This document shows positions 1,353 to 38,618 of a DNA stretch of 39,395 nt, piece by piece (within the stretch, counting starts at the first letter, position 1; each line of letters opens with the position of its first letter). The stretch covers positions 1 through 39,395 of the IMG/VR virus record IMGVR_UViG_3300031379_000011; one strand, written 5' to 3'. The notes beneath the pieces are model-generated. The model was not told the origin of the DNA and searched no databases. It saw nothing but the letters and a program-made list of their open reading frames with translations. Source of the stretch: a virus. Made by a program: the position numbers and the translations under genes.

Positions 1353-1745
1353 TCATTTATCATTTACAATTTCATTATATGAAGCTTCAAAGATATCGGC
1401 CTTACATGGGCATACTTCACCTTGAATACCTTTAATGACATAGTCTCTTTCTTTTGCTAACATAGTTCCCTCAAGAGTTCTTATTAAAAATTCTAGTCCA
1501 TTTATCCGTTCTATATTACCGTTCATAATTTCACTTATAAACCAATTTGGTACTATCATTCCTTTTTCTATTTTTACAGCTTTAACTTTGATAGGCTTTT
1601 TGATAGGCTTTTTGGTAGACTTTTTGATATACTCTGTCCCCTCCATTTTTTTATAAGTTTCTTCTGAGTCATTTATAGCCTTACTTAGTTCTTCGCATGT
1701 AATATTTCTACATTCCTTAAACATTGGTTCATCCCCAAATTTCAT
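1353..1745 (-). CDS. PGDYG-like phage protein, 130 aa
   Basis: ATG at 1745 after an AAGGAGG site; first gene after an operator-type promoter at 1780-1808. The C-terminal third (RTLEGTMLAKERDYVIKGI, then QGEVCPCKADIFEASYNEI) follows the widespread phage PGDYG-type pattern: EGTM, a D-Y/W-I-I-G strand, G-E-x-Y/C-P-C-K-x-D-I-F. The middle holds a Lys-rich repeat (KKPIKKPIK). The family is common in phages but its role is not established. Leading this operon suggests an early-expressed accessory role. Confidence 0.75.
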   Translation of the reverse strand: MKFGDEPMFKECRNITCEELSKAINDSEETYKKMEGTEYIKKSTKKPIKKPIKVKAVKIEKGMIVPNWFISEIMNGNIERINGLEFLIRTLEGTMLAKERDYVIKGIQGEVCPCKADIFEASYNEIVNDK

Positions 1746-1779: not shown

Positions 1780-1808
1780 ATTATAACATGTTATAAATAA
1801 CATGTCAA
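1780..1808 (-). promoter_or_regulatory. Promoter with palindromic operator in the spacer (early operon)
   Basis: On the minus strand: TTGACA (1808-1803), a 17-base spacer, then TATAAT (1785-1780), a full consensus vegetative promoter. The spacer plus flanking bases forms a perfect palindrome, ACATGTTATTTATAACATGT, with an extra ACATGT half site just upstream. The same 20-mer occurs at the SSB promoter. It points at the gene starting at 1745, and a repressor bound here would block both hexamers. Confidence 0.85.
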
Positions 1809-1812: not shown

Positions 1813-3303
1813 TTACCTATTAAAAATGCGATTTAAAATTTGATTGGCTTCCAGTTTTGTTAAAACTCCTGAATCTTGATGTGTAAATTTTTTTATAGTC
1901 TCTAATTGCTTATCAGTAGCAGGTTTATTCCCCCACGTTTTCATAATCCTTAGATCCCATAAATACCTTTTATCTTCATGATTTGCTTCCAACCATTCAT
2001 AAGCATTATCAAATAAATCCTGGATGTCTCTACCATCATTTGATTCATCAAGTTCATTTGGTGACTTGATTTTAAGTAATTTAACTTTTGGTAACTTTAA
2101 AGTTAAATCACCATTAGGCATTTTATACCAATTAACATTATGGGTTTGGTACTTTTTACCTTTTGCCCAAATGTTAACTAGTTTATGATTTATTTTCCAT
2201 ATATGTATGTTATCTTGATTTTTATTTATTTCCTCTGGAAGGTCAAATAAACTTTCAGTTATCTCATCTTTATCACTATCAGGTTTATCTATTTTAGTTA
2301 TACCTAATAAACTTGGTGCGGTGCACAAAGATAAGTTTTCAGATGTACCGACACAATCTATTAAAGTTAATTTATCTTTTCCAGGATAAAGTCTTAAGCC
2401 TCTACCTGTCATTTGAATATGAAGACTTTCATTTTTAGTAGGTCTTGCCATTATAATTGTCTCTATCAATGGTATATCTGTTCCTTCAGTAAAAATCATA
2501 TAGTTAATTAAGCATTGAAACTTTCTATTAGTAAAATCTTGTATGATTTTTTCACGATTTTTAGTCTTAGCATCCACAACTACACTATGGGGGATGCAAT
2601 TTGCTATGTCATAGGCATGTTTAACACTACATGCAAATATTAAAGTTTGACCTACAGCATACTTGTTATATACTTCTGCTATTGCTGACGAGGTATCTTG
2701 CATAGCTTCTTCCAGTTCATTAATTTTAAAATCTCCAGCTTGTGTACCGACTTTTCTTAAATCATAATTTATAAAAGTCCTGATACATTTTATATCGCAT
2801 AAGTAACCTTCCTTAATAGCTTCCAGTAAGGATTTTTTGTAAACTATTTTGTCAAAAACACCTTTCAATTTCACTCCGTCATTTCGGTTAGGGGTGGCAG
2901 TAAACCCAAAATGATGGGTAAAATTGAAATGATCATATATCTTTTGATATGAATTTGTAGAACTATGTTGACATTCATCTGTAATAATAACACTGAATCT
3001 ATTTCTATCAAATTTATCCAATCTTTTAACCAGAGATTGAACAGATGCAATTACTACACGTTCACCATTACTAGAGTGGTTAGCCATTTCAATTCCTACC
3101 GGTTCATTTAAATATTTTATTGGCTGATATATTAATTCTTCTCTATGTGCTAAAATTAATATATCTTTATTACTATTTTTATTTATAAATGTGGTAAAAC
3201 AAATTGTCTTGCCACATCCTGTAGGTAGCTGTATTAACCAGCTTCCACTAGAAATAGTTGACATAATGTCAACTATTTCCTCTTGATAAGGTCTAAGTTT
3301 CAT
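1813..3303 (-). CDS. SF2 DNA helicase (DEAD/DEAH, UvrB/type III restriction-like), 496 aa
   Basis: Superfamily 2 motifs appear in order: motif I LPTGCGKT (about 25-32), motif II DECQ (about 108-111, a DEAD-box variant), motif III FTATPNR (about 133-139), then motif VI QMTGRGLRLYPGKD (about 297-310). This is an ATP-driven duplex-unwinding engine of the kind used in phage replication or recombination. The C-terminal 150 residues are unassigned. The start ATG at 3303 overlaps the stop of the preceding paralog gene (ATGA), so translation is coupled. It is the last gene before the 1808 promoter. Confidence 0.92.
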   Translation of the reverse strand: MKLRPYQEEIVDIMSTISSGSWLIQLPTGCGKTICFTTFINKNSNKDILILAHREELIYQPIKYLNEPVGIEMANHSSNGERVVIASVQSLVKRLDKFDRNRFSVIITDECQHSSTNSYQKIYDHFNFTHHFGFTATPNRNDGVKLKGVFDKIVYKKSLLEAIKEGYLCDIKCIRTFINYDLRKVGTQAGDFKINELEEAMQDTSSAIAEVYNKYAVGQTLIFACSVKHAYDIANCIPHSVVVDAKTKNREKIIQDFTNRKFQCLINYMIFTEGTDIPLIETIIMARPTKNESLHIQMTGRGLRLYPGKDKLTLIDCVGTSENLSLCTAPSLLGITKIDKPDSDKDEITESLFDLPEEINKNQDNIHIWKINHKLVNIWAKGKKYQTHNVNWYKMPNGDLTLKLPKVKLLKIKSPNELDESNDGRDIQDLFDNAYEWLEANHEDKRYLWDLRIMKTWGNKPATDKQLETIKKFTHQDSGVLTKLEANQILNRIFNR

Positions 3304-3488
3304 TCTTTAATTATCCTTTCTATCCAATCACTTGATATTCGATAACCTAATACCTTAGGCTCTGTTATAATAAAGCCTAAATTGTTATGATGTTTTACAT
3401 TTATAAATCCATGTTCATTTTGAACTTCTAAAATGTCTCTAATCCATTCACCACTAACATCATCTGTAAATTTAACCATTACTTTCAT
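3300..3488 (-). CDS. Tandem paralog 3 of a small protein family, 62 aa
   Basis: ATG at 3488 overlaps the upstream stop (ATGA). The sequence begins MKVMVKFTDD and ends SDWIERIIKE. It aligns end to end with the next two genes upstream: MKV(I/M)(V/I)(K/N)F, W(I/M)(R/K)(D/Q)(I/L)L(E/D)(V/L)Q, GFINVK or GYITV, EP, then a WI(E/K)(R/E)(I/V)I(K/E)E end. It reads as a small alpha/beta fold of unknown role. Translation appears coupled to the helicase gene that follows. Confidence 0.75.
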   Translation of the reverse strand: MKVMVKFTDDVSGEWIRDILEVQNEHGFINVKHHNNLGFIITEPKVLGYRISSDWIERIIKE

Positions 3489-3679
3489 TCTTCAATTATC
3501 CTTTCTATCCATTCTGGTAATAATTTATAATTTATTATATCTGGTTCATTTATCTCATATTGGCAGTTATTACGTTTTATTACAGTTATATATCCTTGCT
3601 TTTTTTGTAAATCCAATATATCTCTAATCCAACTAACATCACCGTGATTTTTATAGTTAAATTTAACTATTACTTTCAT
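3485..3679 (-). CDS. Tandem paralog 2 of a small protein family, 64 aa
   Basis: The frame opens upstream, but the ATG at 3679 (MKVIVKFNYKNHG) overlaps the preceding stop and matches the start of its paralogs. Shared features are WIRDILDLQKKQGYITV in the middle and EWIERIIEE at the end. Function unknown. The three copies overlap by four bases each, the hallmark of a tandem duplication kept under coupled translation. Confidence 0.75.
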   Translation of the reverse strand: MKVIVKFNYKNHGDVSWIRDILDLQKKQGYITVIKRNNCQYEINEPDIINYKLLPEWIERIIEE

Positions 3680-3870
3680 TCTTCTATCACTTCCTTTATC
3701 CATTCTGAAGATAATAAATAATTTGACATACTAGGTTCTTTCAGTTCTAAAGTATATGTGGATACTTTTTTAACATTTATAAACCCTTGTTGCATTTGAA
3801 GTTCTAATAATTGCTTCATCCATTCACATTGATTTGACCATTCTGGAAAATTAATTATTACCTTCATCAT
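3676..3870 (-). CDS. Tandem paralog 1 of a small protein family, 64 aa
   Basis: ATG at 3870 (a second ATG follows at 3867) with GAGGTG upstream, overlapping the stop of the zinc-finger gene. The protein reads MMKVIINFPEWSN at the start, WMKQLLELQMQQGFINVKK in the middle, and SSEWIKEVIEE at the end, clearly homologous to the next two genes. It is the most diverged of the three. No known domain recognised. Confidence 0.75.
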   Translation of the reverse strand: MMKVIINFPEWSNQCEWMKQLLELQMQQGFINVKKVSTYTLELKEPSMSNYLLSSEWIKEVIEE

Positions 3871-4196
3871 TTATCTTCACCTCTCTTTATCAATTTAAGT
3901 ATATAGGCCTCTAAATAAATTTCTAGATCCTCTAGCTTTGTATTTAATATTGAAAATTCTTTATTTACAGAGAATTCTTTTTTTAATTTAGCTTTTAATT
4001 CTTTAATATGTTCTAAGTATTCAAATTTAGTTGCACATTCTATACATAGCAAATGACCTTTTTTGCCATTTGGCAATATACCCAATGCACAATCATGACA
4101 AATGTAACGATTACACATTTCGCATGTGTACCCAAATTTAATTTTGCTATTACACCTTTCACATGTATCATCAGAACATTGATGCCTATAAAACAT
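3867..4196 (-). CDS. Zinc-finger protein with C-terminal helix, 109 aa
   Basis: The ATG at 4196 is chosen because a GAGGAG site lies eight bases upstream; an in-frame GTG at 4205 abuts that site and is too close. The N-terminal 55 residues carry the knuckles CSDDTCERC, CEMC, CHDC and CIEC plus histidines, giving at least two zinc sites. Residues 60-109 form a charged, probably coiled-coil helix (KELKAKLKKEF and onward). Its first 40 bases resemble the start of the 4511-4621 gene. An adaptor-like protein of unknown partner. Confidence 0.7.
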   Translation of the reverse strand: MFYRHQCSDDTCERCNSKIKFGYTCEMCNRYICHDCALGILPNGKKGHLLCIECATKFEYLEHIKELKAKLKKEFSVNKEFSILNTKLEDLEIYLEAYILKLIKRGEDK

Positions 4197-4217
4197 TATT
4201 ATCACTCCTCTTATATT

Positions 4218-4499
4218 TTAAAAATTCCATTTTTCATCATTATAATAACTATACAATTCTTTTATATCTTCATTATTTGCAATTTTAGTTATGCTTTCAC
4301 TCATTTCTAAAAATGAATGTCTTAAACTATTTATTTGTTTTTTAGTAATATATCCTCTATCAATGTAAAAATGATATGTAAATACTATAAAATCATCTAA
4401 TAACCTATCTTTTTCAATTAATTTTACTAATGTTCTAATTATCATTTCATCATTATTCCTTAATAATTTATTAATTTCATCAACAGTCCATTTTTTCAT
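4218..4499 (-). CDS. Hypothetical protein, 93 aa
   Basis: ATG at 4499 with a GAGGTAATG site. Sequence begins MKKWTVDEINKLLRNNDEMI; mostly alpha-helical by composition, with no Cys. MKKWTVDEINKLL resembles the start of small helix-turn-helix or sigma-like proteins, but no second helix of that type is clear. It sits between two zinc-protein genes. Function unknown. Confidence 0.65.
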   Translation of the reverse strand: MKKWTVDEINKLLRNNDEMIIRTLVKLIEKDRLLDDFIVFTYHFYIDRGYITKKQINSLRHSFLEMSESITKIANNEDIKELYSYYNDEKWNF

Positions 4500-4510
4500 A
4501 TTTCATTACC

Positions 4511-4621
4511 TCACTTCGACTCATAATACCCACAGTTTGGACATTCCCAACCACCTAATGGAGTTTGCTCCATATCACACCTTTCACAGGTATCATCAGA
4601 ACATTGACACTTAGAAAATAT
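4511..4621 (-). pseudogene. Zinc-protein gene with its ATG replaced by ATA, 36 codons
   Basis: An ATG at 4714 gives a 67-aa frame, but its first 26 codons lie inside the preceding gene and in leader DNA. The natural start follows GGAGGGG, where the codon is ATA (4621). The homologous leader of the 109-aa gene has AATAATGTTT where this one has AATAATATTT. From there it codes CQCSDDTCERC fused to MEQTPLGGWECPNCGYYESK, the latter shared with the 32-aa gene at 4851. It is either a non-functional duplicate, a gene using a rare AUA start, or active only from the internal ATG of MEQTPLGG. Confidence 0.5.
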
Positions 4622-4646
4622 TATTACCCCTCCATTCCTTTTAATC

Positions 4647-4672
4647 TTGTGACCAATATTAAAATTGGTCAC
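4647..4672 (-). other. Hairpin around the stop codon of the 60-aa zinc gene
   Basis: Minus strand: TGTGACCAAT, loop TTTAAT, ATTGGTCACA. This is a perfect 10-bp stem whose loop holds the TAA stop of the 4659-4841 gene. It is not followed by a T run, so it does not look like a terminator. It could protect the 3' end or modulate translation of the next gene, which begins some 25 bases downstream. Confidence 0.55.
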
Positions 4673-4841
4673 ATTTGTTTCTTTCGTCGCAGTTGTCACA
4701 GTCCATACATCCAAGGCAACAAAATATAAGACCTAATTTTTCACAGTACAACATACAATTATCACAAACTTCCTGTTCACATATTTCACACTCGAACACC
4801 TCGTAAACTTCGGCTCCGCAATTTTCACATATTAATTTCAT
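4659..4841 (-). CDS. Cys-rich microprotein, 60 aa
   Basis: ATG at 4841 after GAGGTGTTGAA. Sixty residues with fourteen cysteines: CENC, CEIC, CDNC, then a run ending CCLGCMDCDNCDERNKC. The first three knuckles suggest a treble-clef or zinc ribbon; the clustered C-terminal cysteines could hold another zinc. It begins directly after the 32-aa gene in the same transcript. No known family assigned. Confidence 0.7.
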   Translation of the reverse strand: MKLICENCGAEVYEVFECEICEQEVCDNCMLYCEKLGLIFCCLGCMDCDNCDERNKCDQF

Positions 4842-4850
4842 TTCAACACC

Positions 4851-4949
4851 TCATTTCGACTCATAATACCCACAATTTGGACATTCCCAGCCACCTAATG
4901 GAGTTTGCTCCATATCGCAGCCGCATGGACATTCTCTATAACATTTCAT
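4851..4949 (-). CDS. Zinc-ribbon microprotein, 32 aa
   Basis: ATG at 4949 with a GGAGGGATAATAG leader, TGA at 4851. N-terminus MKCYRECPCGCD is joined to MEQTPLGGWECPNCGYYESK, identical at protein level to the end of the 4511-4621 frame. About 66 bases of DNA are nearly identical between the two genes, so the module was copied recently. Two Cys clusters can hold one zinc. Too short for a gene finder, but the ribosome site and reuse of the module support it. Confidence 0.6.
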   Translation of the reverse strand: MKCYRECPCGCDMEQTPLGGWECPNCGYYESK

Positions 4950-4952: not shown

Positions 4953-5504
4953 TTATCCCTCCTGTTCCATTTTCAATTCATAATTTGGATATTGTATTGA
5001 AATTTTAATTTTTTCAGTAACAATTGCATTAAAACTATTAGTACCTCTGTATATACAAGTTACGTATATTTTAGGATTTTTTAAATTTAAATTGGATAAT
5101 TCATTCTTATCAATTTTTGAATCCACATGCTCAAAACTTTTCGGATTTTTTAAACTATTCATTATTGCCAAATTTACTAAACTATTACTTCCATCTTCTA
5201 AAATCTGAGAATTTATCCATTTGTCACGTTTTTGAATCTCATTTAATGTAGGTTCTGGCGTTTTAATTTCTGTAGGTTTTATTGTTTGTGTCTGTATTTG
5301 TTGTGTAGGTTCTATAGCATAAGTTTTATCTTTATTTTCAGTATCAACATTTTTATCATTTTGGATAATTCCAACCCATAAACAAAATATTAAAATTGGA
5401 ATTCCGATTCTAACTACTTTATTTACATTTTTTTCTTTCAAAATTATATACACTTTCACATATGGTATTAATAACCATGCTAAAATATTCAATATTGTTT
5501 TCAT
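4953..5504 (-). CDS. Membrane protein with extracytoplasmic domain, 183 aa
   Basis: ATG at 5504 after AAGGAG. Two hydrophobic segments (about residues 4-22 and 33-48) flank KEKNVNK. A Thr/Pro/Gln-rich linker (about 65-90) follows, then a soluble domain of about 90 residues containing MNSLKNPKSFEHV, a pattern seen in small secreted domains of Firmicutes. By its topology the soluble part is likely outside the membrane. It is co-transcribed with SSB. Possible roles include superinfection exclusion or membrane anchoring of replication; neither is shown by the sequence. Confidence 0.7.
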   Translation of the reverse strand: MKTILNILAWLLIPYVKVYIILKEKNVNKVVRIGIPILIFCLWVGIIQNDKNVDTENKDKTYAIEPTQQIQTQTIKPTEIKTPEPTLNEIQKRDKWINSQILEDGSNSLVNLAIMNSLKNPKSFEHVDSKIDKNELSNLNLKNPKIYVTCIYRGTNSFNAIVTEKIKISIQYPNYELKMEQEG

Positions 5505-6220: not shown

Positions 6221-6249
6221 ATATTAACATGTTATAAATAACATGTCAA
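6221..6249 (-). promoter_or_regulatory. SSB operon promoter with palindromic operator
   Basis: Minus strand: TTGACA (6249-6244), 17 bases, TAATAT (6226-6221). The palindrome ACATGTTATTTATAACATGT fills the spacer and is identical to the one at 1784-1803. The following leader (TAACAAAGGAGAGATTACAA) is nearly the same as that of the gene at 8966-9274. Confidence 0.85.
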
Positions 6250-6256: not shown

Positions 6257-6291
6257 AAAAAAATATTTGGTATTATACCAAATATTTTTTA
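6257..6291 (-). terminator. Terminator of the DNA polymerase gene
   Basis: A perfect stem of about 16 bp (arm ending ATATTTGGTA), with the polymerase TAA stop as its three-base loop, followed by a T run on the minus strand. The SSB promoter begins eight bases beyond it, so the polymerase and SSB units are separated. Confidence 0.85.
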
Positions 6292-8828
6292 ATTATTTCA
6301 TCATTCAAATTTTCAAAATTTATAGGAGACTTAAAGTTGCACTCATAAAAACCATCACACGACCACACTACTGCTTTATTAACTATTTCATAAAATTTAC
6401 TATCTTTAAATTTAAAAGCACTATCAATTTTAAATATGAACTTTTTATTATACCCAAGTGTTACTTTGTTCCAACATTCAAATGTATTTGCCCGTTTTAA
6501 TTCTTCTAATAAAGGAGTTATTGATTTCCAACCAGTTTTAGCCTTTTTTAATTCTTTATCATAAATATCAATGTCAATAATAATAAATTTATCATTATTA
6601 TTATAAAAAGTCAAACTCTTACTCTCAGTAGATTCTAACACTTGAGTCAAATTATATTGGATTAATGATTTTATCATTGTTTGTTTATTATTTTTATTAT
6701 AAAACATACATTCTTTTTTCAAATCTCCTCTAAATCCAGCTAAACCAATTGTGGGGGATAATAATTTCGTAAATTTTCGTCTCATAGTCCTTTTTAGTTT
6801 TATATTTTCTTCAGAATCTTTTAGTAATTGTACTTCAAAGAAATTTATAGTTTCTTTTTTTTCAAGTTCAAAATCTAAAATCCTATCTTTTATAATTTTT
6901 GCATATTTATTATATATTTCTAATTCAGCTAAATTCTTATCTGTAGTGAAATAAAAAGGTTCATTATTTAAACCCAAAATCGTAGGTTTGACCGTATTTT
7001 TAATTATTACATCCCCCATAGATTTACTTGTAAGATAATATGCTTTTTCCTCTATTTCAAACCACTTAGGGTTAAAATATATTGGAAGAATTTCAACACT
7101 TTTATTATTTAATAATCTTAATGCATTATGAATATTCACCGCTAATTTTTCATTTTTGTTTATCCATTGCTTAATCTTAAGATTGTAACAACCTTTAGTT
7201 TTCATCTTACCATTTTGCCATTTAATGTAGTTATTTACATCTTTTTGAATTATCTTATCTATTTTTTCTATACCAACTTTAAAATACCCATCATCTTCAA
7301 TATTAATTTCCTGCTCTGGTACAATCAACCCATCGGTATTTCCATTATAAATTTGATCCACTTTTTCAGATAAATTTATTAATAAAGATTGCCCTTTAAG
7401 GCAGATGAATCTTCCTAAAGGTTTACAAGAAATTGGAAGATTGAAATTAGAGTTTATTAACCCATAAGCAGAATTTAATATGATCTTAAATCCATACTTT
7501 AAATCCTCCAATATCTTAATATCTTCGATATTTCGTTCCCATTTTAATTTTTGTTTAATATTAGTATTTCTTTCTATGTAGATTTGTTCATACAAATCTA
7601 CATCTAAAATATTTTTAAATAATTCAGCATATTGAAGTATAACCGATGGATATTGACTTTCATAATCTAAGTGTAGTAAATTTTCAACACGGAAATTTTC
7701 TTTAGCTCCATGAAGACCCCCAAGTCCAAATTTACATTTGCAACCTTTCAATTCAATTTCATCAAAACTGTTAACTTGAATATCAATATCAATATTATAA
7801 TCATCATCTATATAATCACGATTATTATAATCGCAATATACCTTTTTTAATTCTGCATCACTTTTAATATGTTGATTGTCATTACAAAACTTTACAAAAT
7901 TATTGAATTTTACATTATCTGTTTTTATAAGATTTGTATAATCAATATCAATATTTTTATCAGGATTTTCTATACTCAGAATCGATACAATTAAATCTGT
8001 ATTATTTTCACTATAAATTACTCTATTTTTTAATTCAACCTTCCTAAGACTATTAACGGCTTTTACAGCTAACCATTTTTCTTTAATTTTAGGTATTATA
8101 TTTTTATCAAAAAATCTATATAAAAAATCTACATCATTCTTAGAATATTCTATCCATTTATTATATAAATTATCTTCTTTAATTTTTTCAATATTTTTAT
8201 ATACCGAAAAGTCAATCTTGATGTTGTACCCTTCTTCCACTAATTGCAGTGACTTTAAGGAAATAGAAGGTATGAGTCTTCTATCATTCCTAATCGTGTA
8301 ATAATACATAATTTTAGGAATTGAATTAAACATCATATTTTTAAAAACTTTAGATTTTCCTAACATTTTACTGAATTTATCTAATAATTCTAAAGTGGGG
8401 GGATTATTAGAATAATGTAATTTGCATTTTTCAATAGCTAAATCAAAATCTTTCAAATCATCTTTAAAATAACATTCGACCCAGAAAAAACTATTTAACC
8501 TAAAATAATCTAATCCTTGCATAATTAGATTATTTAGTTCTCTCATTTTTAAACATAAATTTGCTTCATTATTTTCTACGAGTTTACATAAAAAATTAAT
8601 CATTACTGCATCATAATCAATGCTGTAAAAATACATAGGTCTTGTTATTTTACATAATACCTCACTATAAAATTTATAAAAATCTGAATCTTCATAACAT
8701 TCTACAATATAAGTTTTTGACATAGCTTCATTTCTATACTGAAATGACCAATAATCATATAAGCATTCCGTATCAATTATTAAAAATTTAGGATCAAAAA
8801 CTTCTAAATTTATTAATTCATTTAACAT
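6273..8828 (-). CDS. Family B DNA polymerase, 851 aa
   Basis: Exonuclease motifs: Exo I DTE (19-21) and a likely Exo III YSKND ahead of VDFLYRFF. Polymerase motif A is LDYESQYPSVI (about 383-393), with SQYPS in place of the usual SLYPS. Motif B is KIILNSAYG (about 450-458). Motif C is NTDG (about 495-498) instead of DTDS; the second, catalytic Asp is kept. It copies the phage genome and proofreads. Start ATG at 8828 with AAAGGG, and its own promoter at 8852-8880. The 350 residues after motif C are unassigned. No terminal-protein signature is obvious, so protein priming cannot be claimed. Confidence 0.9.
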   Translation of the reverse strand: MLNELINLEVFDPKFLIIDTECLYDYWSFQYRNEAMSKTYIVECYEDSDFYKFYSEVLCKITRPMYFYSIDYDAVMINFLCKLVENNEANLCLKMRELNNLIMQGLDYFRLNSFFWVECYFKDDLKDFDLAIEKCKLHYSNNPPTLELLDKFSKMLGKSKVFKNMMFNSIPKIMYYYTIRNDRRLIPSISLKSLQLVEEGYNIKIDFSVYKNIEKIKEDNLYNKWIEYSKNDVDFLYRFFDKNIIPKIKEKWLAVKAVNSLRKVELKNRVIYSENNTDLIVSILSIENPDKNIDIDYTNLIKTDNVKFNNFVKFCNDNQHIKSDAELKKVYCDYNNRDYIDDDYNIDIDIQVNSFDEIELKGCKCKFGLGGLHGAKENFRVENLLHLDYESQYPSVILQYAELFKNILDVDLYEQIYIERNTNIKQKLKWERNIEDIKILEDLKYGFKIILNSAYGLINSNFNLPISCKPLGRFICLKGQSLLINLSEKVDQIYNGNTDGLIVPEQEINIEDDGYFKVGIEKIDKIIQKDVNNYIKWQNGKMKTKGCYNLKIKQWINKNEKLAVNIHNALRLLNNKSVEILPIYFNPKWFEIEEKAYYLTSKSMGDVIIKNTVKPTILGLNNEPFYFTTDKNLAELEIYNKYAKIIKDRILDFELEKKETINFFEVQLLKDSEENIKLKRTMRRKFTKLLSPTIGLAGFRGDLKKECMFYNKNNKQTMIKSLIQYNLTQVLESTESKSLTFYNNNDKFIIIDIDIYDKELKKAKTGWKSITPLLEELKRANTFECWNKVTLGYNKKFIFKIDSAFKFKDSKFYEIVNKAVVWSCDGFYECNFKSPINFENLNDEIIKKYLV

Positions 8829-8851: not shown

Positions 8852-8880
8852 ACTATAACACGGTAATTCTACCGTGTAAA
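8852..8880 (-). promoter_or_regulatory. DNA polymerase promoter with variant operator
   Basis: Minus strand: TTTACA (8880-8875), 17 bases, TATAGT (8857-8852). The palindrome ACACGGTAGAATTACCGTGT occupies the spacer. Arms are ACACGGTA instead of ACATGTTA, but centre, length and position match the operators at 1784, 6225 and 10101, suggesting a variant site of the same or a related regulator. Confidence 0.8.
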
Positions 8881-8965: not shown

Positions 8966-9274
8966 TTATAATATTTTTTGGAAGGTTATTCTTACATCAT
9001 GTGGGTTTACTACTCTTACCCTATTAATATAAATATGTATTCCTAATTGATAAATACAAACTTTTTCATTTTCTGCTAAAACTTTTTTTGGTGAATTTTC
9101 AAATCTTTCAATTTCTTCTTTACTTAAAGTCCTTTGGTTATTTTCTTCAATATTTCTCTCAATTGTAGATACTTCAAATCTATTCAATGCTCTACTCCAA
9201 TTTACTAATAAACCTAATTTTTCCTCAATATCCATTAACCTGCTTGTTGTTATTGTTGATCCATAATATGCCAT
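8966..9274 (-). CDS. Hypothetical protein, 102 aa
   Basis: The frame is open to 9316, but the true start is ATG at 9274 (MAYYGSTITTSRLMDIEEK) after CAAAGGAGAGATTGCAA; the extra codons translate promoter and leader. Mostly helical N-terminus and a beta-rich C-terminus (VCIYQLGIHIYINRVRVV). No family recognised. It has its own operator-type promoter, so it is an early gene under the same control as replication. Confidence 0.7.
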   Translation of the reverse strand: MAYYGSTITTSRLMDIEEKLGLLVNWSRALNRFEVSTIERNIEENNQRTLSKEEIERFENSPKKVLAENEKVCIYQLGIHIYINRVRVVNPHDVRITFQKIL

Positions 9275-9306: not shown

Positions 9307-9335
9307 ATTGTACCATGGTACAATTACCATGTCAA
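9307..9335 (-). promoter_or_regulatory. Promoter with TGGTA-type operator
   Basis: Minus strand: TTGACA (9335-9330), 17 bases, TACAAT (9312-9307). The near-palindrome ACATGGTAATTGTACCATGG fills the spacer, with TGGTA/TACCA arms. It drives the 8966-9274 gene, whose leader nearly duplicates the SSB leader. Confidence 0.8.
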
Positions 9336-10094: not shown

Positions 10095-10123
10095 ATTGTA
10101 ACATGTTAATTGTAACATGTCAA
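10095..10123 (-). promoter_or_regulatory. Leftward promoter of the divergent control region
   Basis: Minus strand: TTGACA (10123-10118), 17 bases, TACAAT (10100-10095). Operator ACATGTTACAATTAACATGT fills the spacer. Only 16 bases separate its -35 from that of the rightward promoter, so both could respond to one bound regulator. Confidence 0.85.
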
Positions 10124-10139: not shown

Positions 10140-10168
10140 TTGTAATGTTAAATATAACATGTTATAAT
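10140..10168 (+). promoter_or_regulatory. Rightward promoter of the divergent control region
   Basis: Plus strand: TTGTAA (10140-10145), 17 bases, TATAAT (10163-10168). The spacer TGTTAAATATAACATGT contains a TGTTA/TAACA palindrome of the same family. It drives the only plus-strand gene in the early region (10198-10371). Confidence 0.8.
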
Positions 10169-10197: not shown

Positions 10198-10371
10198 ATG
10201 GATATAGAAAAGAAGTTTAGATATAAATTTAAAAGAAGCAGCTTACAATTTCCCAAGGAATTTATTGAATTCCTTAATGAGCAAATTAAAGACGGACAAC
10301 CTAAAAATCATTTTATAATGGATAAGTGTGGATTCAAAAATTATAAAGACATGGGGGAAAGATTTAAATAA
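10198..10371 (+). CDS. Small protein, 57 aa, divergently transcribed; candidate autoregulator
   Basis: ATG at 10198 with AGAAGGGATG upstream, TAA at 10369-10371. Sequence begins MDIEKKFRYKFKRSSLQFPK. The stretch RSSLQFPKEFIEFLNEQ resembles the strand plus first helix of ribbon-helix-helix DNA-binding proteins (R-x-S-L-x-x-P-K-E-x-x-E-x-L). The second helix and its Gly turn are not convincing. Position is the better argument: it is divergent, alone, and under an operator of the regulon family. It may encode the repressor of these sites, which is inference. Confidence 0.6.
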   Translation: MDIEKKFRYKFKRSSLQFPKEFIEFLNEQIKDGQPKNHFIMDKCGFKNYKDMGERFK

Positions 10372-10395
10372 AAAAAGGCTTTAAAGCCTTTTTTT
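10370..10395. terminator. Bidirectional terminator
   Basis: Perfect 26-base palindrome AAAAAAAGGCTTT / AAAGCCTTTTTTT between two convergent genes. It serves the plus-strand gene ending at 10371 and the surface-protein gene ending at 10412 on the other strand. Confidence 0.9.
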
Positions 10396-10411
10396 ATTTA
10401 TACCCATTTAT

Positions 10412-11485
10412 TTAGATTATTCTTTTTTTTAAACTTACAAACAACCCTATACCTAAACCAATAAATGCAATGCCTCCAGCGACAAATGGTAACTTACTAC
10501 TTGAAGATTCTCCTGTTTTAGGTAGAACTCTACCGTTAGAATAAGTGTAATATGATTTTTTCGAATCTCCTTTAGCACTAAGTTTTGTATCACTTGTACT
10601 AAGTTCCGTCGCTGTATTCCTTCTAACATATACGTTTACTTTCTCACCGTCTACTTCAATTTCATTAGTTCCCTGGTTTAATGTAAACCCTTTGGACCAT
10701 TTACCATTGTAATAAATTTTAGTATTTCTCAATCCATTTACACAAGATGTAACCATTTTTTGAGTAATTTTACCTCTGAATTCACCCTGCATAATTTGGA
10801 TATTACAATTAGTATTACCTGATACATTTAATACATACTTACCAGTAGTTGTATTAGTGCATTTTGGTGTGCTAGTTGATGTTGCGCCTGGTGTTTCGCT
10901 TGCTGTACTAGTGGCTGTTTCAGATGCTGTACTAGTTGCTGTTTCAGATGCTGTACTAGTTGCTGTTTCAGATGCTGTACTAGTTGCTGTTTCAGTTGCT
11001 GTACTAGTTGCTGTTTCAGATGGTGAAGTGGATGCTTCTACAGTCAATTCTTCTACATTAAATGTAAAAATAAATACTACATTGTTAGCATAGTTAGCAA
11101 TTTTAGTATTTATATCTTCATATTGACTAGTAAGTATTTTCTTTTCAGCATTTACTGTAACTTCATTATAACCTAGCTTATTAAAATCTTGTGGTGAACT
11201 ACCTTCATAAACTATATGCCCATCATATTTACCTACTACTTTACAATTAGCTGTTAAATTAAATGCATCAAATGTATATGAACTACCTTTTGAAATACTT
11301 ACACCATTTACACTTGCAGTTTTTGTCCATGTAATCCCGTTAAGAGCAGTAATATCATCAGAAGTTACATCACTAAATGTAGTTTTATACTTTTTTGTTT
11401 CTGTGCCTGCATTTATATTAAGGCCTACACAAAAAATAGTAATTAAAATTGACATTGCTAAACTTATTGTTATGATTTTTTTCAT
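10412..11485 (-). CDS. LPKTG sortase-anchored cell-surface protein, 357 aa
   Basis: ATG at 11485 after AAAAGGGAG. A Sec signal peptide (MKKIITISLAMSILITIFCV, cleavage near NINAG) is followed by a beta-rich domain to about residue 150. Next comes a Ser/Thr/Glu repeat region with five units of about TASETATS, then a second beta domain. The C-terminus is a full cell-wall sorting signal: LPKTGE, a hydrophobic span (FVAGGIAFIGLGIGLFVSL) and KKR. A host sortase would link it to peptidoglycan. Likely role, by inference: alteration of the host surface during lysogeny, such as adhesion or phage exclusion. Transcribed from a regulon promoter at 11524-11552. Confidence 0.92.
   Translation of the reverse strand: MKKIITISLAMSILITIFCVGLNINAGTETKKYKTTFSDVTSDDITALNGITWTKTASVNGVSISKGSSYTFDAFNLTANCKVVGKYDGHIVYEGSSPQDFNKLGYNEVTVNAEKKILTSQYEDINTKIANYANNVVFIFTFNVEELTVEASTSPSETATSTATETATSTASETATSTASETATSTASETATSTASETPGATSTSTPKCTNTTTGKYVLNVSGNTNCNIQIMQGEFRGKITQKMVTSCVNGLRNTKIYYNGKWSKGFTLNQGTNEIEVDGEKVNVYVRRNTATELSTSDTKLSAKGDSKKSYYTYSNGRVLPKTGESSSSKLPFVAGGIAFIGLGIGLFVSLKKRII
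10901..11020. repeat. Five 24-bp tandem repeats coding a Ser/Thr/Glu stalk
   Basis: Five head-to-tail copies of TGCTGTACTAGTTGCTGTTT plus four bases, at 10901, 10925, 10949, 10973 and 10997. They differ by only two or three bases, so copy number probably varies by slippage. The 24-base period keeps the reading frame (8 residues per unit), so changes lengthen or shorten the stalk of the surface protein. Confidence 0.93.
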
Positions 11486-11515: not shown

Positions 11516-11552
11516 GTATGGTAATAATACCATGCATAATTTATAATGTCAA
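11516..11552 (-). promoter_or_regulatory. Surface-protein promoter, operator centred on the -10
   Basis: Minus strand: TTGACA (11552-11547), 17 bases, TATTAT (11529-11524). The near-palindrome GCATGGTATTATTACCATAC (11535-11516) is centred on the -10. An alternative -10, TATAAA (11515-11510), with a poor -35 (TATGCA) would place the operator in the spacer instead. Confidence 0.7.
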
Positions 11553-11591: not shown

Positions 11592-11623
11592 AAATAAGCT
11601 GAAAAATATTTTTCAGCTTATTT
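11592..11623. terminator. Perfect 32-base palindrome, probable bidirectional terminator
   Basis: AAATAAGCTGAAAAAT / ATTTTTCAGCTTATTT with no loop bases in between. AT-rich flanks on both sides. It insulates the surface-protein promoter from the origin-like gap upstream. Confidence 0.65.
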
Positions 11624-12162
11624 ATAAATGTTAATGTTGAAATATACAATTTTATTTTGATTATTCACATTATATCATATAATTTAGTACATTTTTATGA
11701 AATTTAAGTGCATTTCCATGAAATTTTGGTACATTTTCATGAAATTTAGGTACATTTCTATAAACTTTTAATTATTTAAAATATGGGGGAATTTCATCAT
11801 TTTTGGTTTTCCAGTTATGTAAATATTAGGTTAAAAAAAAAATATTGAAATATTTTCCAATTGACATCCTCCGGTGGAGTAGTTCTCCATATCTCCCCAC
11901 GCAAGTGATACCAATGGTTTCAAGGATTTTTTGGAGAGGAGGAGGACCATTTTTGCATCCTTTGTCTATTTTTTTTTTTTATGTATACATTTGTTTTCTA
12001 TTTGGTAATAATTAGTATCATAATATATACATTTTATTATAAAAATCATTATTATTATTTATTTATAATATATAGTCCTCCATCTCCACTATACACTAAT
12101 ACCAATATGAGGAGATGATTTTAATGTAATCCTCTATACTTCTCCTCTCCGCCCAAAATTGG
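11624..12162. other. Non-coding region, candidate replication origin
   Basis: No credible gene in about 540 bases (the whole gap is 11486-12179). It holds four 21-bp iterons (11687-11769), a TGGGGGA motif (11784), long A/T tracts, and two blocks richer in G and C (about 11866-11950 and 12073-12156). Both blocks have CTCC-rich and GGAG-rich halves around a shared ATACCAAT. In block two, CATCTCC and GGAGATG form a 7-bp inverted repeat. It lies just downstream of the VirE-like replication gene. An origin, a packaging site or both would fit. Confidence 0.55.
11687..11769. repeat. Four iterons, 21-bp period
   Basis: GTACATTTTTATGAAATTTA (11687), GTGCATTTCCATGAAATTTT (11708), GTACATTTTCATGAAATTTA (11729), GTACATTTCTATAAACTTTT (11750). 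Starts are exactly 21 bases apart, two helical turns, so bound proteins would stack on one face. Each contains a TTTCATGAAA-like palindrome. Such arrays are typical of plasmid and phage initiator binding sites. Confidence 0.8.
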
Positions 12163-16087: not shown

Positions 16088-16124
16088 ACATGTTAATTAT
16101 AACATGTTAAGCATTATTATTCAA
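16088..16124 (-). promoter_or_regulatory. Methyltransferase promoter, operator centred on the -10
   Basis: Minus strand: TTGAAT (16124-16119), 17 bases, TATAAT (16101-16096). The palindrome ACATGTTATAATTAACATGT (16107-16088) is centred on the -10, and AAAGGAG follows at once, so the leader would be only a few bases long. Confidence 0.75.
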
Positions 16125-17549: not shown

Positions 17550-18296
17550 CTATTCGGGATTATTTTTTACAGCTTCTAGCTTTTTTAGATCTGAATCTCT
17601 ATAAATATGGAACGCCTGGTATTGTGTATCCATATATAAATTATATCCATGCGTCATTGCTCTTATAGAAAATGCTCTATCCTCCCATATGGAGAACGTT
17701 ACATTTTCGATAGGTGAATAATTTACACCTTTTCTATATACATCATTATTTACTAAAATTAATGCTCCTGTACCACCAACTTTATGTATACCTTTTTGTG
17801 TATAATCATATTGATTTCCGCCATATTGGTCATATTGCCATGCGTTAGTTCCTGGATGCTCGTCATTAACATTCCATTTAGTCCAAAATACTTCTGACAT
17901 TATATTGAGTTTTAAATGTTTTAAAGTTTTGTATAAATGAATTAATGTTAATGGATGTAAAATTAAGTCACTATCAACCCAAAATGTATAATCATAATTA
18001 TTTTTTAAGCTATAGTCTATTATTTCATTTTTAATAGTAGATAATGTTGTAAAATTTTCATACTTCCAGTGGTGTGTATCATTTGAAACTTTATAGCTAA
18101 TTTTATTATCATATCTTACAAGAGAAGTTTCGTCATTAAAATAATCTTTTAAATTATCATAGCAATTATGTAAATAAAAATGTCTATCCACACTAAATAA
18201 ATTTTTATCTATTATTAAATCATCTAAACTTTGTAAATAATGTTTTAAAATTTCAGGTTTTTGATTAATAGCTGCCGTTATTAAAATTTTATCCAT
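17550..18296 (-). CDS. Glycosyltransferase-like protein (GT-A fold), 248 aa
   Basis: ATG at 18296 with GGAGGATTTGATTTG upstream (a TTG at 18299 is less likely). An early ILITAAINQKPEILKHY strand-helix, the metal-binding DxD in YTFWVDSDLILHPL and a later HKVGGTGALILVNN match GT-A transferases. No membrane segment. It is the third of three such genes. Target unknown; cell-wall or virion glycans are plausible. Confidence 0.72.
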   Translation of the reverse strand: MDKILITAAINQKPEILKHYLQSLDDLIIDKNLFSVDRHFYLHNCYDNLKDYFNDETSLVRYDNKISYKVSNDTHHWKYENFTTLSTIKNEIIDYSLKNNYDYTFWVDSDLILHPLTLIHLYKTLKHLKLNIMSEVFWTKWNVNDEHPGTNAWQYDQYGGNQYDYTQKGIHKVGGTGALILVNNDVYRKGVNYSPIENVTFSIWEDRAFSIRAMTHGYNLYMDTQYQAFHIYRDSDLKKLEAVKNNPE

Positions 18297-18997
18297 CAAA
18301 TCAAATCCTCCAAATTTGGGTTTTTATCTAATATAGATTTATATTGTTCTAGTGATCCATATACTCCATCTGGATCAACGTCCATATACCTTTTAAATTT
18401 ATTTAATCTGTCTTTTTCAGTACTCCACCCCATATGTTTAACATATACATTTTCCAGTATGCCACAAGTATAATTTAATACTTTTGTAGGAAATCTCCCA
18501 CAATGTATGGGGGAATTAGAGAATGTTAAATCTTTTTCAATATATCGTGCTAGAAATGGAAATGCTCTAGTATGTGCGTTCCACAAATCATCGGACCTGT
18601 ACTGTTTATCATTCCACATGTCGAATAATCTTAATGCTATTAAATCTAAACTTTTATCATTTGATAACATTCCAAAATCAATAAATTCATGTAAATATTT
18701 AGCATCATATTTAGATATTAACTCATCTGCATCAAATATCGCTATCCAATCACTAAGTTTGGCATGATTACAACATTTATCCCATAACGCTTTTCTTAAT
18801 ATAGATTCGTTTTTTATAAAAGTATGTTCAGCTGTATCATATATAATATCTGTATACCTTGAACATATTTCTACTGTATTATCAGTACTTGCGTCATTTA
18901 ACACAACAATTTTATCACATAATATACTATACGATTCAAGGAATTCAGTTAGCCATCTATCAGCTTCATTTCTTACTAACAATCCACCAATTATCAT
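18296..18997 (-). CDS. Family 2 glycosyltransferase, 233 aa
   Basis: ATG at 18997 overlaps the preceding stop (ATGA) after GGAGGAAGC. LLVRNEADRWLTEFLESY, then KIVVLNDASTDNTVEI is a textbook GT2 nucleotide-sugar-binding start. WIAIFDADE carries the metal-binding DxD. It transfers a sugar from a nucleotide donor; the acceptor cannot be told. The three glycosyltransferase-like genes overlap and are surely one unit. Confidence 0.88.
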   Translation of the reverse strand: MIIGGLLVRNEADRWLTEFLESYSILCDKIVVLNDASTDNTVEICSRYTDIIYDTAEHTFIKNESILRKALWDKCCNHAKLSDWIAIFDADELISKYDAKYLHEFIDFGMLSNDKSLDLIALRLFDMWNDKQYRSDDLWNAHTRAFPFLARYIEKDLTFSNSPIHCGRFPTKVLNYTCGILENVYVKHMGWSTEKDRLNKFKRYMDVDPDGVYGSLEQYKSILDKNPNLEDLI

Positions 18998-19701
18998 GTC
19001 TTAGCTTCCTCCTCATCCATATATAATAATTTACCTTGATTCTTAGGATCTTTTTCCCAAGCTGACAAAGCCTCTTTTTGGTATTGTGAAGTAATTGGAG
19101 TTACAGCCAAATGACCAATATCGACTCTTGTATCACATAGTATTTTTACATTAATTTCTTGCCTGGCTTTTATACAAAATGTAATATCCTCCCCCATATT
19201 TGGGAACGGATAAAACCAGGGTTTTTTTATTTTATTTAAAATTGTAGTTTTAAACATACACGCCGCCATTCCACAAGCTTCTATTGGTATTATAGAATTT
19301 TCAATCCATTTTATAATACCTTCTAAATGTGGTTTGTATTCTATCCGATCATATTGATCCTTACTTTCAATTATTCGAGCTTTTAAATATATACATGGTT
19401 GGAATGGATAAGCTCTTTTAAAAATCAATCCTGACACCATATCACAAGTTTCCAATGTTTCTAAATATTTAATTATAGTATTTCTAGGTAAAACCATGTC
19501 AGAATCAACCATTAATATATAGTCAAATCCATTTTCTAAAGCAAATTTACATAAATTTTCCCTGGCATCATATATTAGACAATTTGAAATATACCTAAAA
19601 TTTATTTCGACATCTTTAGGCATTTCTAAATTCATTATGCTAGATACAGTCATAAAATGATAATATCCTGTGGTTGGAAGTCCTATTAATATTTTTTTCA
19701 T
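18994..19701 (-). CDS. Glycosyltransferase family 2-like protein, 235 aa
   Basis: ATG at 19701 after AAGGAGCAAAGTG. Features are KKILIGLPTTGYYHFMTV at the start, FDYILMVDSDMVLP with the DxD motif, and a later PFPNMGEDITFCIKARQ helix typical of GT-A enzymes. First gene of the glycosyltransferase unit, behind an operator-type promoter. Probably modifies host-surface or virion glycans. Confidence 0.82.
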   Translation of the reverse strand: MKKILIGLPTTGYYHFMTVSSIMNLEMPKDVEINFRYISNCLIYDARENLCKFALENGFDYILMVDSDMVLPRNTIIKYLETLETCDMVSGLIFKRAYPFQPCIYLKARIIESKDQYDRIEYKPHLEGIIKWIENSIIPIEACGMAACMFKTTILNKIKKPWFYPFPNMGEDITFCIKARQEINVKILCDTRVDIGHLAVTPITSQYQKEALSAWEKDPKNQGKLLYMDEEEAKT

Positions 19702-19724
19702 CACTTTGCTCCTTCAATAATAAT

Positions 19725-19744
19725 TTATGTTAATTATACCATAT
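19725..19744 (-). promoter_or_regulatory. Glycosyltransferase promoter with hybrid operator on the -10
   Basis: Minus strand -10 TATAAT (19738-19733) sits at the centre of ATATGGTATAATTAACATAA. One arm is of the TGGTA type and the other of the TAACA type, so it is a hybrid of the two operator classes. No good -35 lies 16-18 bases upstream, so the promoter may be weak or need an activator. Confidence 0.55.
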
Positions 19745-27643: not shown

Positions 27644-29920
27644 TCACCCTATGTCCAAAGCTACACTATTAAATGGAGATATATTAGTATTACTTATTTG
27701 GATTTCATATATGACTCCATATCCACTATATATTGAAGCTCCACCAATATATAAATCCCATGTGTTCGTAAATCCTGATACATCCAATTCTAATATAATT
27801 TGATACGCTGTACCTTTAATTCTAAACCTTAATACATCATTGTCTTTTTCAATATAATACTGAGCTTTACTTTGCACAGCAATTGTGGCACTTTCATTAG
27901 ATGGATACCATGTACCAGAGCCATTTTGACGTTTATAAATACCAGCTACACCATTTTCCACCTGGCACATAATATAATTATCTGAATCTTGATATAGTGT
28001 AAAGCTTGGTAAATAATTAGCATATTTACAACAAATATATAATTTAGCAAAAAATTGTTTCAAGTCACTTTTTAAAAATAACTGTCTAGCACTGTACGCA
28101 TTTGGATTAGTATGTACTATTCCAGGAGATACAAAACCAGCTGTTGAGTCGATTGCTGTAGAATAATGGTCTAGATTAGGGTAAAACTTATAACTCCATT
28201 CTTGCCCGTTATACTTTTGGAAAACATTATAATAATTCGATAATACCGAATCCACTCTTGCCATATACATATATTGTATTACAATATATGCACCACTAGA
28301 AGATGCATAGTTATAACCTAACAAACCTATATATTGAATATCAGACCAACTATGCCCTGATCCTGTAGATGAAAAATCAGATTTTTTAAGACTCCAACAA
28401 TACCATCTATCATCTGTTATATTTCCGTTCCCATCAATATCCAAATCTTGATAATAACAATTTACATAATCAGCTCCTAATCTTATTCTAAAATAATCAA
28501 AATTGGCTTTATTTACAACTTTAAAACAAATAACTATAAAATCATTTGTATTACTTATTGAATCTGCTCCACTAAATTGTGCTAAATTTAAAGAAACTGA
28601 TTTTTCGATTGCAACATAATCTGTAGAAGCCGTACCAATTCTAGTCATCCTTTGAGCTTTGTCAAATAAGTAAAAATTTGTTGTATCGTTCGATAGTGTA
28701 GTATATGAACCTCTTGCACTCCAACCACTGTTAAAATAATCTATTACTTTCATACATTTCAAATAAAAATAATCTCGTTCATCAAAGTAATTTATATGAA
28801 AAGCCTTAACAGCATTTTGGTCATTAACATAAATTTGGTCGGTAATTTTTTTCATAGTAGTAGCATTGGCTTTAGATACCGTATTAACCCAATTTTCAGG
28901 CGTATAATTTCCTAAAACTGCTTCGGTGTAAGTTTCTCCCCCACCTTCTCCACCGCCGCCCGGTTCAGCATCAAATACATTACTCATTGCCGTTAATAAT
29001 GCTGAATTTGAGTCATATTCAGTAAGCCAAATTCCTAATCCTGCTATATTTTCATTAATTACATAATTAGCTTTGGCAGCTATTGAAGTCCCATTTTCAT
29101 AAAAAATATGATGGTAAGTATCTCCACTTATCCATTTTTCTAACCATGGTACTTGTGCGACGCTGTCATAATTACTGTACCAATCGTTTAAATCAATGTA
29201 GGTACTTAATAAATCAGAATATGAAATTAATTGATGGCTATTTTCATAATAATACCCATAAAATGGGCATCCCAATATTATTTTATCGTAATAATCAGAC
29301 CCTACAGTATCTTTCCATAATTGCACCATATTGTCACCGGATATTTGATACGTAATATTATTTTCAGTAGCAAATATTTCACTTACATATAATTGTGAGT
29401 GATGGCCTAACGTACTCCAATTATAGTCATACCCCATCAACATAGCGAAATCTGCGTATTGAAATGTATTTACAGCATTAACATAAGTTAAGAAAGTATC
29501 AAAATTACCGGCAGCATAACTAAGAGATGCCTCACTTCCAATTGCTGTCCTTATTTCAGATAATAAAGTTACTAAATTATTACCATCTGTAGTATTAGAT
29601 GGATATTCCCAATCTATAGAGACTCCATCAAAACCGTATGTTGAGATTGCACTTTGAATATTACTTATGAAAGTAGATCTATATCCAGCATTCGCAACCA
29701 TAGCGGTGTAATTTGCATCTGAACCGCCTATACTTAATATTACTGGTTTTGTAGGATTTGCGGCTTTAATATCAGCAATACAAGTGTCCCAACCTCCGTC
29801 AACAGTTAAAGCCCCTGCACTACTAGTTAAGTTAGCAATTGCCATCATCCAATGGGTAACTTTAGTACTATATACACCTGGATCACTTGCCGCAATATAT
29901 GCTACAATGCTTCTAGCCAT
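27644..29920 (-). CDS. GH18 chitinase-like glycosidase with carbohydrate-binding C-terminus, 758 aa
   Basis: ATG at 29920 (MARSIVAYIAASDPGVYSTK) after GGAGCGTGTGATA; a GTG at 29926 is less likely. GH18 motifs: SIGG (63-66) and the catalytic DGVSIDWE (98-105; Glu105 is the acid). A Gly/Glu linker (about 325-335) leads to 400 residues with lectin-like beta domains. It lies in the tail block, with no signal peptide, so it is probably a virion-borne enzyme that cuts surface glycans or peptidoglycan. Substrate not determinable. Confidence 0.88.
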   Translation of the reverse strand: MARSIVAYIAASDPGVYSTKVTHWMMAIANLTSSAGALTVDGGWDTCIADIKAANPTKPVILSIGGSDANYTAMVANAGYRSTFISNIQSAISTYGFDGVSIDWEYPSNTTDGNNLVTLLSEIRTAIGSEASLSYAAGNFDTFLTYVNAVNTFQYADFAMLMGYDYNWSTLGHHSQLYVSEIFATENNITYQISGDNMVQLWKDTVGSDYYDKIILGCPFYGYYYENSHQLISYSDLLSTYIDLNDWYSNYDSVAQVPWLEKWISGDTYHHIFYENGTSIAAKANYVINENIAGLGIWLTEYDSNSALLTAMSNVFDAEPGGGGEGGGETYTEAVLGNYTPENWVNTVSKANATTMKKITDQIYVNDQNAVKAFHINYFDERDYFYLKCMKVIDYFNSGWSARGSYTTLSNDTTNFYLFDKAQRMTRIGTASTDYVAIEKSVSLNLAQFSGADSISNTNDFIVICFKVVNKANFDYFRIRLGADYVNCYYQDLDIDGNGNITDDRWYCWSLKKSDFSSTGSGHSWSDIQYIGLLGYNYASSSGAYIVIQYMYMARVDSVLSNYYNVFQKYNGQEWSYKFYPNLDHYSTAIDSTAGFVSPGIVHTNPNAYSARQLFLKSDLKQFFAKLYICCKYANYLPSFTLYQDSDNYIMCQVENGVAGIYKRQNGSGTWYPSNESATIAVQSKAQYYIEKDNDVLRFRIKGTAYQIILELDVSGFTNTWDLYIGGASIYSGYGVIYEIQISNTNISPFNSVALDIG

Positions 29921-29922
29921 TA

Positions 29923-30402
29923 TCACACGCTCCTTTCAAACTTATCGTATCTGAATATTTGGATCTCTTCATTTTTTGCGGACCTGTCATCTTCAAAAGT
30001 AATGTATGATAATAGTTTACCTGTTCCAATTGTAGAAGTTGCTGTACTACCACCCCACAAACCTAATTCTTTTACATGAAAAAGTGCTTCTGTGGATAAT
30101 ACATAAAATACATTTAATACTTCACCAGTTCCACTGATTGTGGGGGATGCACCGATGTAAGTTCTAAATGTTTCACTACCCATATTGGTCATTGTGTTAT
30201 ATATTGTTGCTGATTGTGTGCCTAATCCTATATATGCGGGGACAAAATCATTAGACCCGTTATATAAGGCTTTTGCCATTTCATTTAAAGCAGTGTCCAA
30301 CAATTTGTTATATTTTATTTCTTCTCTTATTTTTCCAGTATCTTTATCTATAAATTTAAATTTAAATTTTCCAGACCACCCATGTCTATTAGTATCTTTC
30401 AT
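29923..30402 (-). CDS. Tail fibre-like / baseplate accessory protein, 159 aa
   Basis: ATG at 30402 after AAAGAGGTGATT. GWSGKFKFKFIDKDTGKIRE and YNKLLDTALNEMAKALY, then YIGLGTQSATI and TEALFHVKELGLWGGS are features of small Firmicutes phage tail-fibre domains. Sits between baseplate and GH18 genes; the four-base overlap with the next gene implies coupling. Confidence 0.7.
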   Translation of the reverse strand: MKDTNRHGWSGKFKFKFIDKDTGKIREEIKYNKLLDTALNEMAKALYNGSNDFVPAYIGLGTQSATIYNTMTNMGSETFRTYIGASPTISGTGEVLNVFYVLSTEALFHVKELGLWGGSTATSTIGTGKLLSYITFEDDRSAKNEEIQIFRYDKFERSV

Positions 30403-36676: not shown

Positions 36677-37414
36677 TTATATTATTTGTTTAAATTCTAT
36701 ACTAGGTAAAACATCTTTAAAACCTAGACTATTAGCCATCTCTACTACTCGTTTTTTAGCTTCCTGATAGATGTCTTTATAAAACATATTTTTATCCATA
36801 CCTTCTATAATTGCTTGCTTTACTATCATATCAGCTACTATTATTTTACTTAATTGAGATATACTAAGGATTTCCCTTACATTTTTAAATTTTTCTTTTA
36901 ATATAAAAAATGCTGAATTTTCCATTTTTGAAAAATTCATATAATATTTTTCTGCACTTTTAGAACCTTGTGATTTCGCATATTCTATAAATTGTTTTAT
37001 AACATCTGTTTCTTGTTTTCTTCCTAATTTACTTTTACCTCTGGTTTCAAGGTATTCTTGGTTTTGCTTTTGTGTCTTTTGTTCTAAGATCCATTTTTCC
37101 ATTTCAACAAATTTATCAGCAATCTCTAATTTAGCTTTCATAATTGTATTAATTTCATTTGCTTTTGTTCTCATATTTGTAATAAGGAAAATATATTGTT
37201 TTTTATTTAAGTAATAAACTTTTGTTGGCTGTCCACCTAAACTTCCTTTTTTTGGTTTAGCACTTTCAAAATGCAATACCCCCAATATTCCTAATTCATT
37301 TTCATATTTTTTTACTAAATTATAAATAACTTTATGATCTCTATTTAATTCTTGAGCTAAAATTTTTGTAGAAACATAAATTTTATCATTTTTAATAGTT
37401 ACTAAATTATTCAA
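36677..37414 (-). CDS. Rha family phage regulatory protein, 245 aa
   Basis: TTG start at 37414 (MNNLVTIKNDKIYVSTKILA), eight bases after AAAAGGAG; a GTG at 37423 overlaps that site. The N-terminus matches Rha: VSTKILAQELNRDHKVIYNL, then KVYYLNKKQYIFLITNMRTK and MKAKLEIADKFVEMEKWI. Residues 115-245 are helical and unassigned. Rha proteins are phage regulators with antirepressor-like architecture. First gene of the lysis unit, with its own promoter. Confidence 0.85.
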   Translation of the reverse strand: MNNLVTIKNDKIYVSTKILAQELNRDHKVIYNLVKKYENELGILGVLHFESAKPKKGSLGGQPTKVYYLNKKQYIFLITNMRTKANEINTIMKAKLEIADKFVEMEKWILEQKTQKQNQEYLETRGKSKLGRKQETDVIKQFIEYAKSQGSKSAEKYYMNFSKMENSAFFILKEKFKNVREILSISQLSKIIVADMIVKQAIIEGMDKNMFYKDIYQEAKKRVVEMANSLGFKDVLPSIEFKQII

Positions 37415-37444
37415 TATCAACACTCCTTTTAAGTTAATAAGTAA

Positions 37445-38599: not shown

Positions 38600-38618
38600 T
38601 AATCATCCCACCTTTCTT

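Follow-up and report, generated by a model that had tools for sequence, protein, structure and literature searches.

We have found in a 39.4-kb virus record, analysed over its whole length (the window), a gene for an LPKTG surface protein that reads as an accessory, moron-like unit, turned on with the replication genes and coating the infected cell, where it would most likely block further phages or the phage's own progeny. We give this reading as a whole a probability of roughly one half (0.48). Its parts differ in strength. That the 357-aa product is displayed on the wall is very probable from its sequence, and exclusion as the purpose of the displayed protein, argued by analogy, is a serious but tentative proposal. 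Phage-made surface proteins of Gram-positive hosts are known mainly from integrated prophages and are often small lipoproteins. What appears to be new here, judging from the sequences, is a sortase-anchored version that integrase-less phages carry repeatedly and that falls under the replication regulon; a full-text search with partial coverage of the literature turned up no account of such recurrence of LPXTG proteins in phages that lack integrases. If true, cells under infection would be covalently re-coated by the virus. Such re-coating would matter for superinfection and for the way progeny escape attachment to cells already infected, and it would affect the habit of taking metagenomic LPXTG proteins as purely bacterial traits.

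The LPKTG gene and its product

The gene is an intact open reading frame on the minus strand, and its product can be divided as follows.

10412..11485, minus strand: coding sequence of the 357-aa LPKTG surface protein, stop codon included
11408..11485, minus strand: Sec signal peptide, residues 1-26 (sequence and hydrophobicity; cleavage site by eye)
11027..11407, minus strand: N-terminal ectodomain, residues 27-153, an orphan with no family or PDB match
10865..11026, minus strand: Thr/Ser/Ala/Glu stalk, residues 154-207, coded largely by a 24-bp unit
10568..10864, minus strand: C-terminal ectodomain, residues 208-306, with three Cys; weakly Ig-like, Glucodextran_B below cut-off
10415..10525, minus strand: sorting signal, residues 321-357 (LPKTG, membrane segment, basic tail; PF00746, TIGR01167)

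An earlier note on this DNA had claimed a full Sec signal, a sortase signal and five near-identical 24-bp repeats coding a stalk, and all three stand. The N-terminus, MKKIITISLAMSILITIFCVGLNINAG, reads as a Sec-type signal with a basic n-region and a hydrophobic core and has no lipobox, and residues 1-26 fit by sequence and hydrophobicity. The C-terminus, LPKTGESSSSKLPFVAGGIAFIGLGIGLFVSLKKRII, is above both curated cut-offs, with 23.3 bits against PF00746 (Pfam cut-off 20) and 23.4 bits against TIGR01167 (NCBIfam cut-off 15.9). The likeness to the EF2685/EF0750-type sortase-dependent proteins (NF053819) is weak, involves the anchor and linker region, and stays below the 47-bit family cut-off for the window protein and for those of two relatives, G408 and G419. 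The stalk lies between the two ectodomains, and its array (10901-11022) holds 5.1 copies at 96% match, with a TRF score of 230. The copies agree at silent positions as well, which points to a recent expansion of the array. No second allele of the stalk was found in the homology searches, which in the large collections use short exact peptide seeds and may miss records very near the window; the earlier description of the stalk as variable is thus not supported. A 78-aa open reading frame antisense to the repeats was treated as an artefact of the 24-bp array.

The same searches gave no homologue of the LPKTG protein in viral contigs, GTDB contigs, phage records or plasmids. With the stalk masked, the protein had no match in 391 genomes of one class of Clostridia and five weak matches among 395 genomes of a second class; these were rejected as homologues, the four inspected neighbourhoods containing ABC transporters or other unrelated genes. 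Early matches to the whole protein were also discarded as driven by the stalk, the one inspected being a proline/threonine-rich protein. No ectodomain homologue of known function was found, the PADLOC defence library gave no match at E 0.01, and AlphaFold2 run on the single sequence produced an unusable model (pLDDT 35).

Transcription, regulon and phage genome

The ends of the record repeat 146 bp at 99%, and it looks like a complete siphophage; completeness of phage records was inferred from such terminal repeats, and none were seen for two of the relatives described below (G410 and G413). The gene content comprises an HK97-type head, tape measure, portal, terminase, endolysin, VapE-type helicase, single-stranded DNA-binding protein (SSB) and a divergent DNA polymerase, and the LPKTG gene sits outside the virion module. 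The DNA polymerase (6273-8828, minus strand, 851 aa) is very divergent and has no Pfam match. The signals around the LPKTG gene are the following, promoter and terminators being called as consensus matches.

11524..11552, minus strand: promoter TTGACA-17-TATTAT with TG before the -10, 11/12 matches
11517..11534, no strand: operator palindrome centred on the -10 of the LPKTG gene, one mismatch to CATGKTAN4TAMCATG
11592..11623, minus strand: upstream terminator hairpin with T run, towards the VapE-helicase side, z -5.7
10366..10400, no strand: bidirectional terminator between the LPKTG gene and a convergent 57-aa gene, z -3.8 and -5.5
11676..11770, no strand: iteron-like repeats of ~21 bp upstream of the LPKTG gene, from a repeat search

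With a strong promoter of its own and with hairpin terminators upstream and downstream, the LPKTG unit appears insulated on both sides, and is thus moron-like. Judged by consensus matches, it has the promoter, the terminator and the placement between phage genes of a moron; however, a moron would be active in a repressed prophage, outside the control of the phage regulon, and here the phage's operator is present and no integrase was found. The iteron-like repeats lie within the 700 bp that separate the LPKTG gene from the VapE helicase gene, and are a possible replication origin.

The palindrome at the LPKTG promoter is one of nine sites in the window, the others being these.

1787..1804, no strand: operator in the promoter spacer of gene 1745..1353
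6228..6245, no strand: operator in the promoter spacer of the ssDNA-binding protein gene
8859..8876, no strand: operator in the promoter spacer of the DNA polymerase gene, 2 mismatches to consensus
9314..9331, no strand: operator in the promoter spacer before ORF 9274..8966
10102..10119, no strand: operator in the 17-bp promoter spacer of a minus-strand operon
10144..10161, no strand: operator before the 57-aa plus-strand gene 10198-10371
16089..16106, no strand: operator centred on TATAAT before a methyltransferase gene, geometry as at the LPKTG promoter
19726..19743, no strand: weak operator, possibly a chance match (2 mismatches), centred on TATAAT before a glycosyltransferase-like gene

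Over the whole window CATGKTAN4TAMCATG occurs seven times when one mismatch is allowed, where a first-order Markov model predicts 0.05, and nine times when two are allowed, against 1.06 in shuffles; on this sequence enrichment the predicted operator is a genuine element. Two geometries are found. At six sites the operator fills the 17-bp spacer, always in one register, while at three (LPKTG, methyltransferase and, weakly, glycosyltransferase-like genes) it is centred on the -10, and either placement would be expected to block RNA polymerase. The earlier claim that the LPKTG promoter carries the regulon palindrome on its -10 is borne out, as 11517-11534 covers TATTAT and the operator is shared with the SSB, polymerase and other early genes. 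The two operators 10102..10119 and 10144..10161 together form a divergent promoter region. The 57-aa product encoded at 10198-10371 was considered as an Arc-like ribbon-helix-helix repressor and set aside on an all-helical, low-confidence model with no PDB match, a weak test. The window's operator was searched for in the relatives and is absent from them.

No tyrosine integrase or serine recombinase was detected in the window or in eight relatives linked by a Rha-type regulator, in a search that the control genomes matched. Since no integrase was found and the operator is shared with replication genes, the LPKTG protein would be expressed in infection and not from a silent prophage, and the earlier suggestion that it acts in lysogens is for the same reasons not upheld. 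The main rival to exclusion is a carrier state, in which the phage persists as an episome and the stalked protein works as an adhesin or colonisation factor that sticks the bacterium to a substrate or to other cells. An LPXTG anchor with a repeat stalk is the classical adhesin layout, the divergent promoters at 10102/10144, each bearing an operator, could act as a switch permitting the episomal state, and a wall-anchored protein, SasX, is found on a phiSPbeta-like prophage of S. aureus (PMC10232760). Against such a role, which we consider possible but rather unlikely, no integrase was found in any of the nine phages, no partition gene was recognised among the proteins scanned, and in a quiescent state the operator would silence the LPKTG gene together with the replication genes.

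Related phages

The Rha-type regulator (36677-37423) ties the window to other IMG/VR records at 55-72% identity, and the eight large ones (G408, G410-G414, G419 and G421) were taken as the set of relatives. Two of the eight, G408 (290 aa) and G419 (365 aa), encode Sec+LPKTG proteins; both pass TIGR01167, and the Pfam anchor score is above cut-off in G419 and just below it in G408. G408 was first spotted by its LPKTG DNA pattern and then recovered independently through Rha. Between G408 and G419 the ectodomains share a distant relationship (E 4e-5), and neither detectably resembles the window protein outside the anchor region.

A further LPKTG phage, G423, was found via the LPKTG pattern, a biased route, and its DNA polymerase is 42% identical to that of the window. 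This 887-aa protein, aligned over 810 aa, is the sole long relative found for the window polymerase. The LPKTGD protein of G423 (L298:8204-9415, 403 aa) has a 57-bp repeat stalk and is encoded by a lone unit that is flanked by two hairpins and adjoins a primase-helicase-like gene. Its anchor, although below the Pfam cut-off, looks complete, with LPKTGD followed by a membrane segment and a basic tail. The N-terminal half is an Asn/Gln/Ser repeat of ~8 copies of the 57-bp unit, a stalk chemistry quite unlike the Thr/Ser/Ala/Glu stalk of the window. Across the LPKTG phages the anchor is kept and the ectodomains or stalks differ. Most other LPKTG strings in viral contigs have no real anchor and were rejected, and an LPKTG protein on an isolate contig (L137), placed among genes resembling a conjugative element, was left uncounted.

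These analogues bear on two further explanations. The product could be a virion or assembly protein that merely resembles a sortase substrate, as Ig-like domains and repeats are frequent in phage proteins. We regard this as very improbable given the Sec signal with a complete sorting signal above cut-off, the gene's own promoter and terminators, its location outside the virion module, and the analogous Sec+LPKTG proteins in three related phages, which also favour the earlier claim that the infected cell rather than the virion carries the protein. Several of the Rha-linked relatives have no LPKTG gene, so the gene is dispensable, and its absence from some of them would suit a host surface gene acquired by chance and decaying or useless to the phage. 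The open reading frame is nevertheless intact, its third-position GC falls within the range of the phage's genes, near the lower end, and so gives no sign of recent arrival from a host of different composition, and the gene bears the phage's own operator while analogues recur in relatives, all of which makes chance acquisition improbable.

Two of the Rha-linked relatives, G411 and G413, encode instead Sec-exported papain-like C1 cysteine proteases (39410-40855, plus strand, of the G411 record, and L244:379-1608 in G413), both over the PF00112 cut-off and with extra C-terminal domains. The virion module of G411 resembles that of the window gene by gene, and its protease gene comes shortly after the VapE helicase gene, a position as for the LPKTG gene of the window. 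Phage-secreted proteases of this kind look unusual. Their replacing the LPKTG protein in two relatives hints that the surface or the surroundings may be remodelled more widely, and would suit a shield against non-phage threats (grazers, bacteriocins, wall hydrolases) or retention in the niche until lysis; the ectodomains, however, have no family match, and we think this explanation unlikely. It is also conceivable, although we hold it as speculative, that integrase-less phages of this group carry an exchangeable "infected-cell coat" made in the lytic phase and re-dressing or trimming the cell surface, either an anchored protein (window, G408, G419, G423) or a secreted protease (G411, G413), here under the replication regulator.

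Proposed exclusion by a wall-anchored protein

For the reading that we prefer, coating of the infected cell with exclusion of other phages, the steps would be as follows. With the operator-binding regulator inactive and the replication genes active, the LPKTG protein would be made during infection, a timing deduced from the shared operator, and it would be exported by Sec. The host's own sortase, assuming that it accepts LPKTG, would cleave the motif and link the protein to peptidoglycan; a motif scan of the phages for a TLxTC gene that resembles a sortase and has a fitting length gave none except a glycosyltransferase. The Thr/Ser stalk would hold the outer domain off the wall, and the masked or altered surface would then make further phages and the phage's own progeny fail to bind or inject.

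There are precedents for such a protein. SasX acts in colonisation (PMC10232760), and is a phage-encoded, wall-anchored surface protein, as is predicted for the window protein; it is carried by an integrated prophage, whereas in the window no integrase was found and the gene belongs to a replication-gene regulon, and a sequence relation between the two is not established. Superinfection-exclusion lipoproteins of the Ltp type are known from temperate S. thermophilus phages (PMC3952083), and an exported Ltp-like protein, gp41 of the C. acnes phage Aquarius, from integrase-less pseudolysogenic phages (PMC11480721). Ltp-type proteins are phage-encoded and exported to the surface of the infected cell, as is predicted for the window's product, and the C. 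acnes phages share with the window phage the absence of an integrase. The Ltp-type proteins differ in being small lipoproteins or signal-anchored, with neither sortase anchoring nor a repeat stalk, and Ltp is expressed from a prophage; the window protein has no lipobox and carries a C-terminal sorting signal in place of a lipoprotein signal. In CwpV of Clostridioides difficile, wall-displayed repeats stop infection after adsorption (PMC4737114). CwpV has tandem repeats and is wall-displayed, as is predicted for the window protein, the repeats of CwpV being C-terminal and carrying the anti-phage activity, but CwpV is host-encoded and phase-variable, with a PF04122 anchor and repeats of 79-120 aa. 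By analogy with such systems, phage exclusion is a reasonable inference for the window protein.

The Thr/Ser stalk might itself be modified by phage enzymes, namely the methyltransferase and possibly the glycosyltransferase that share one operator geometry with the LPKTG gene. This idea is weak, because homologues of the glycosyltransferases are present in G411, in which no LPKTG gene turned up, and were not seen in G419 or G423. Three glycosyltransferase-like genes (17550-19704, minus strand) lie within the virion module, have counterparts in the same module of G411, and may act in virion or surface glycosylation. In a tail-region protein (27644-29926, minus strand) the N-terminal domain is GH18 chitinase-like (PF00704, 8e-42), which may hint at a glycan-coated niche or receptor. 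The early region (3300-4949 and 38450-39124) codes for many small Cys-rich, zinc-ribbon-like proteins and contains tandemly duplicated small genes. The gene at 4953-5504 (minus strand) codes for a candidate second surface protein of the infected cell, a membrane protein that has a Thr/Pro linker, probably a domain on the outside, and a relative in G414.
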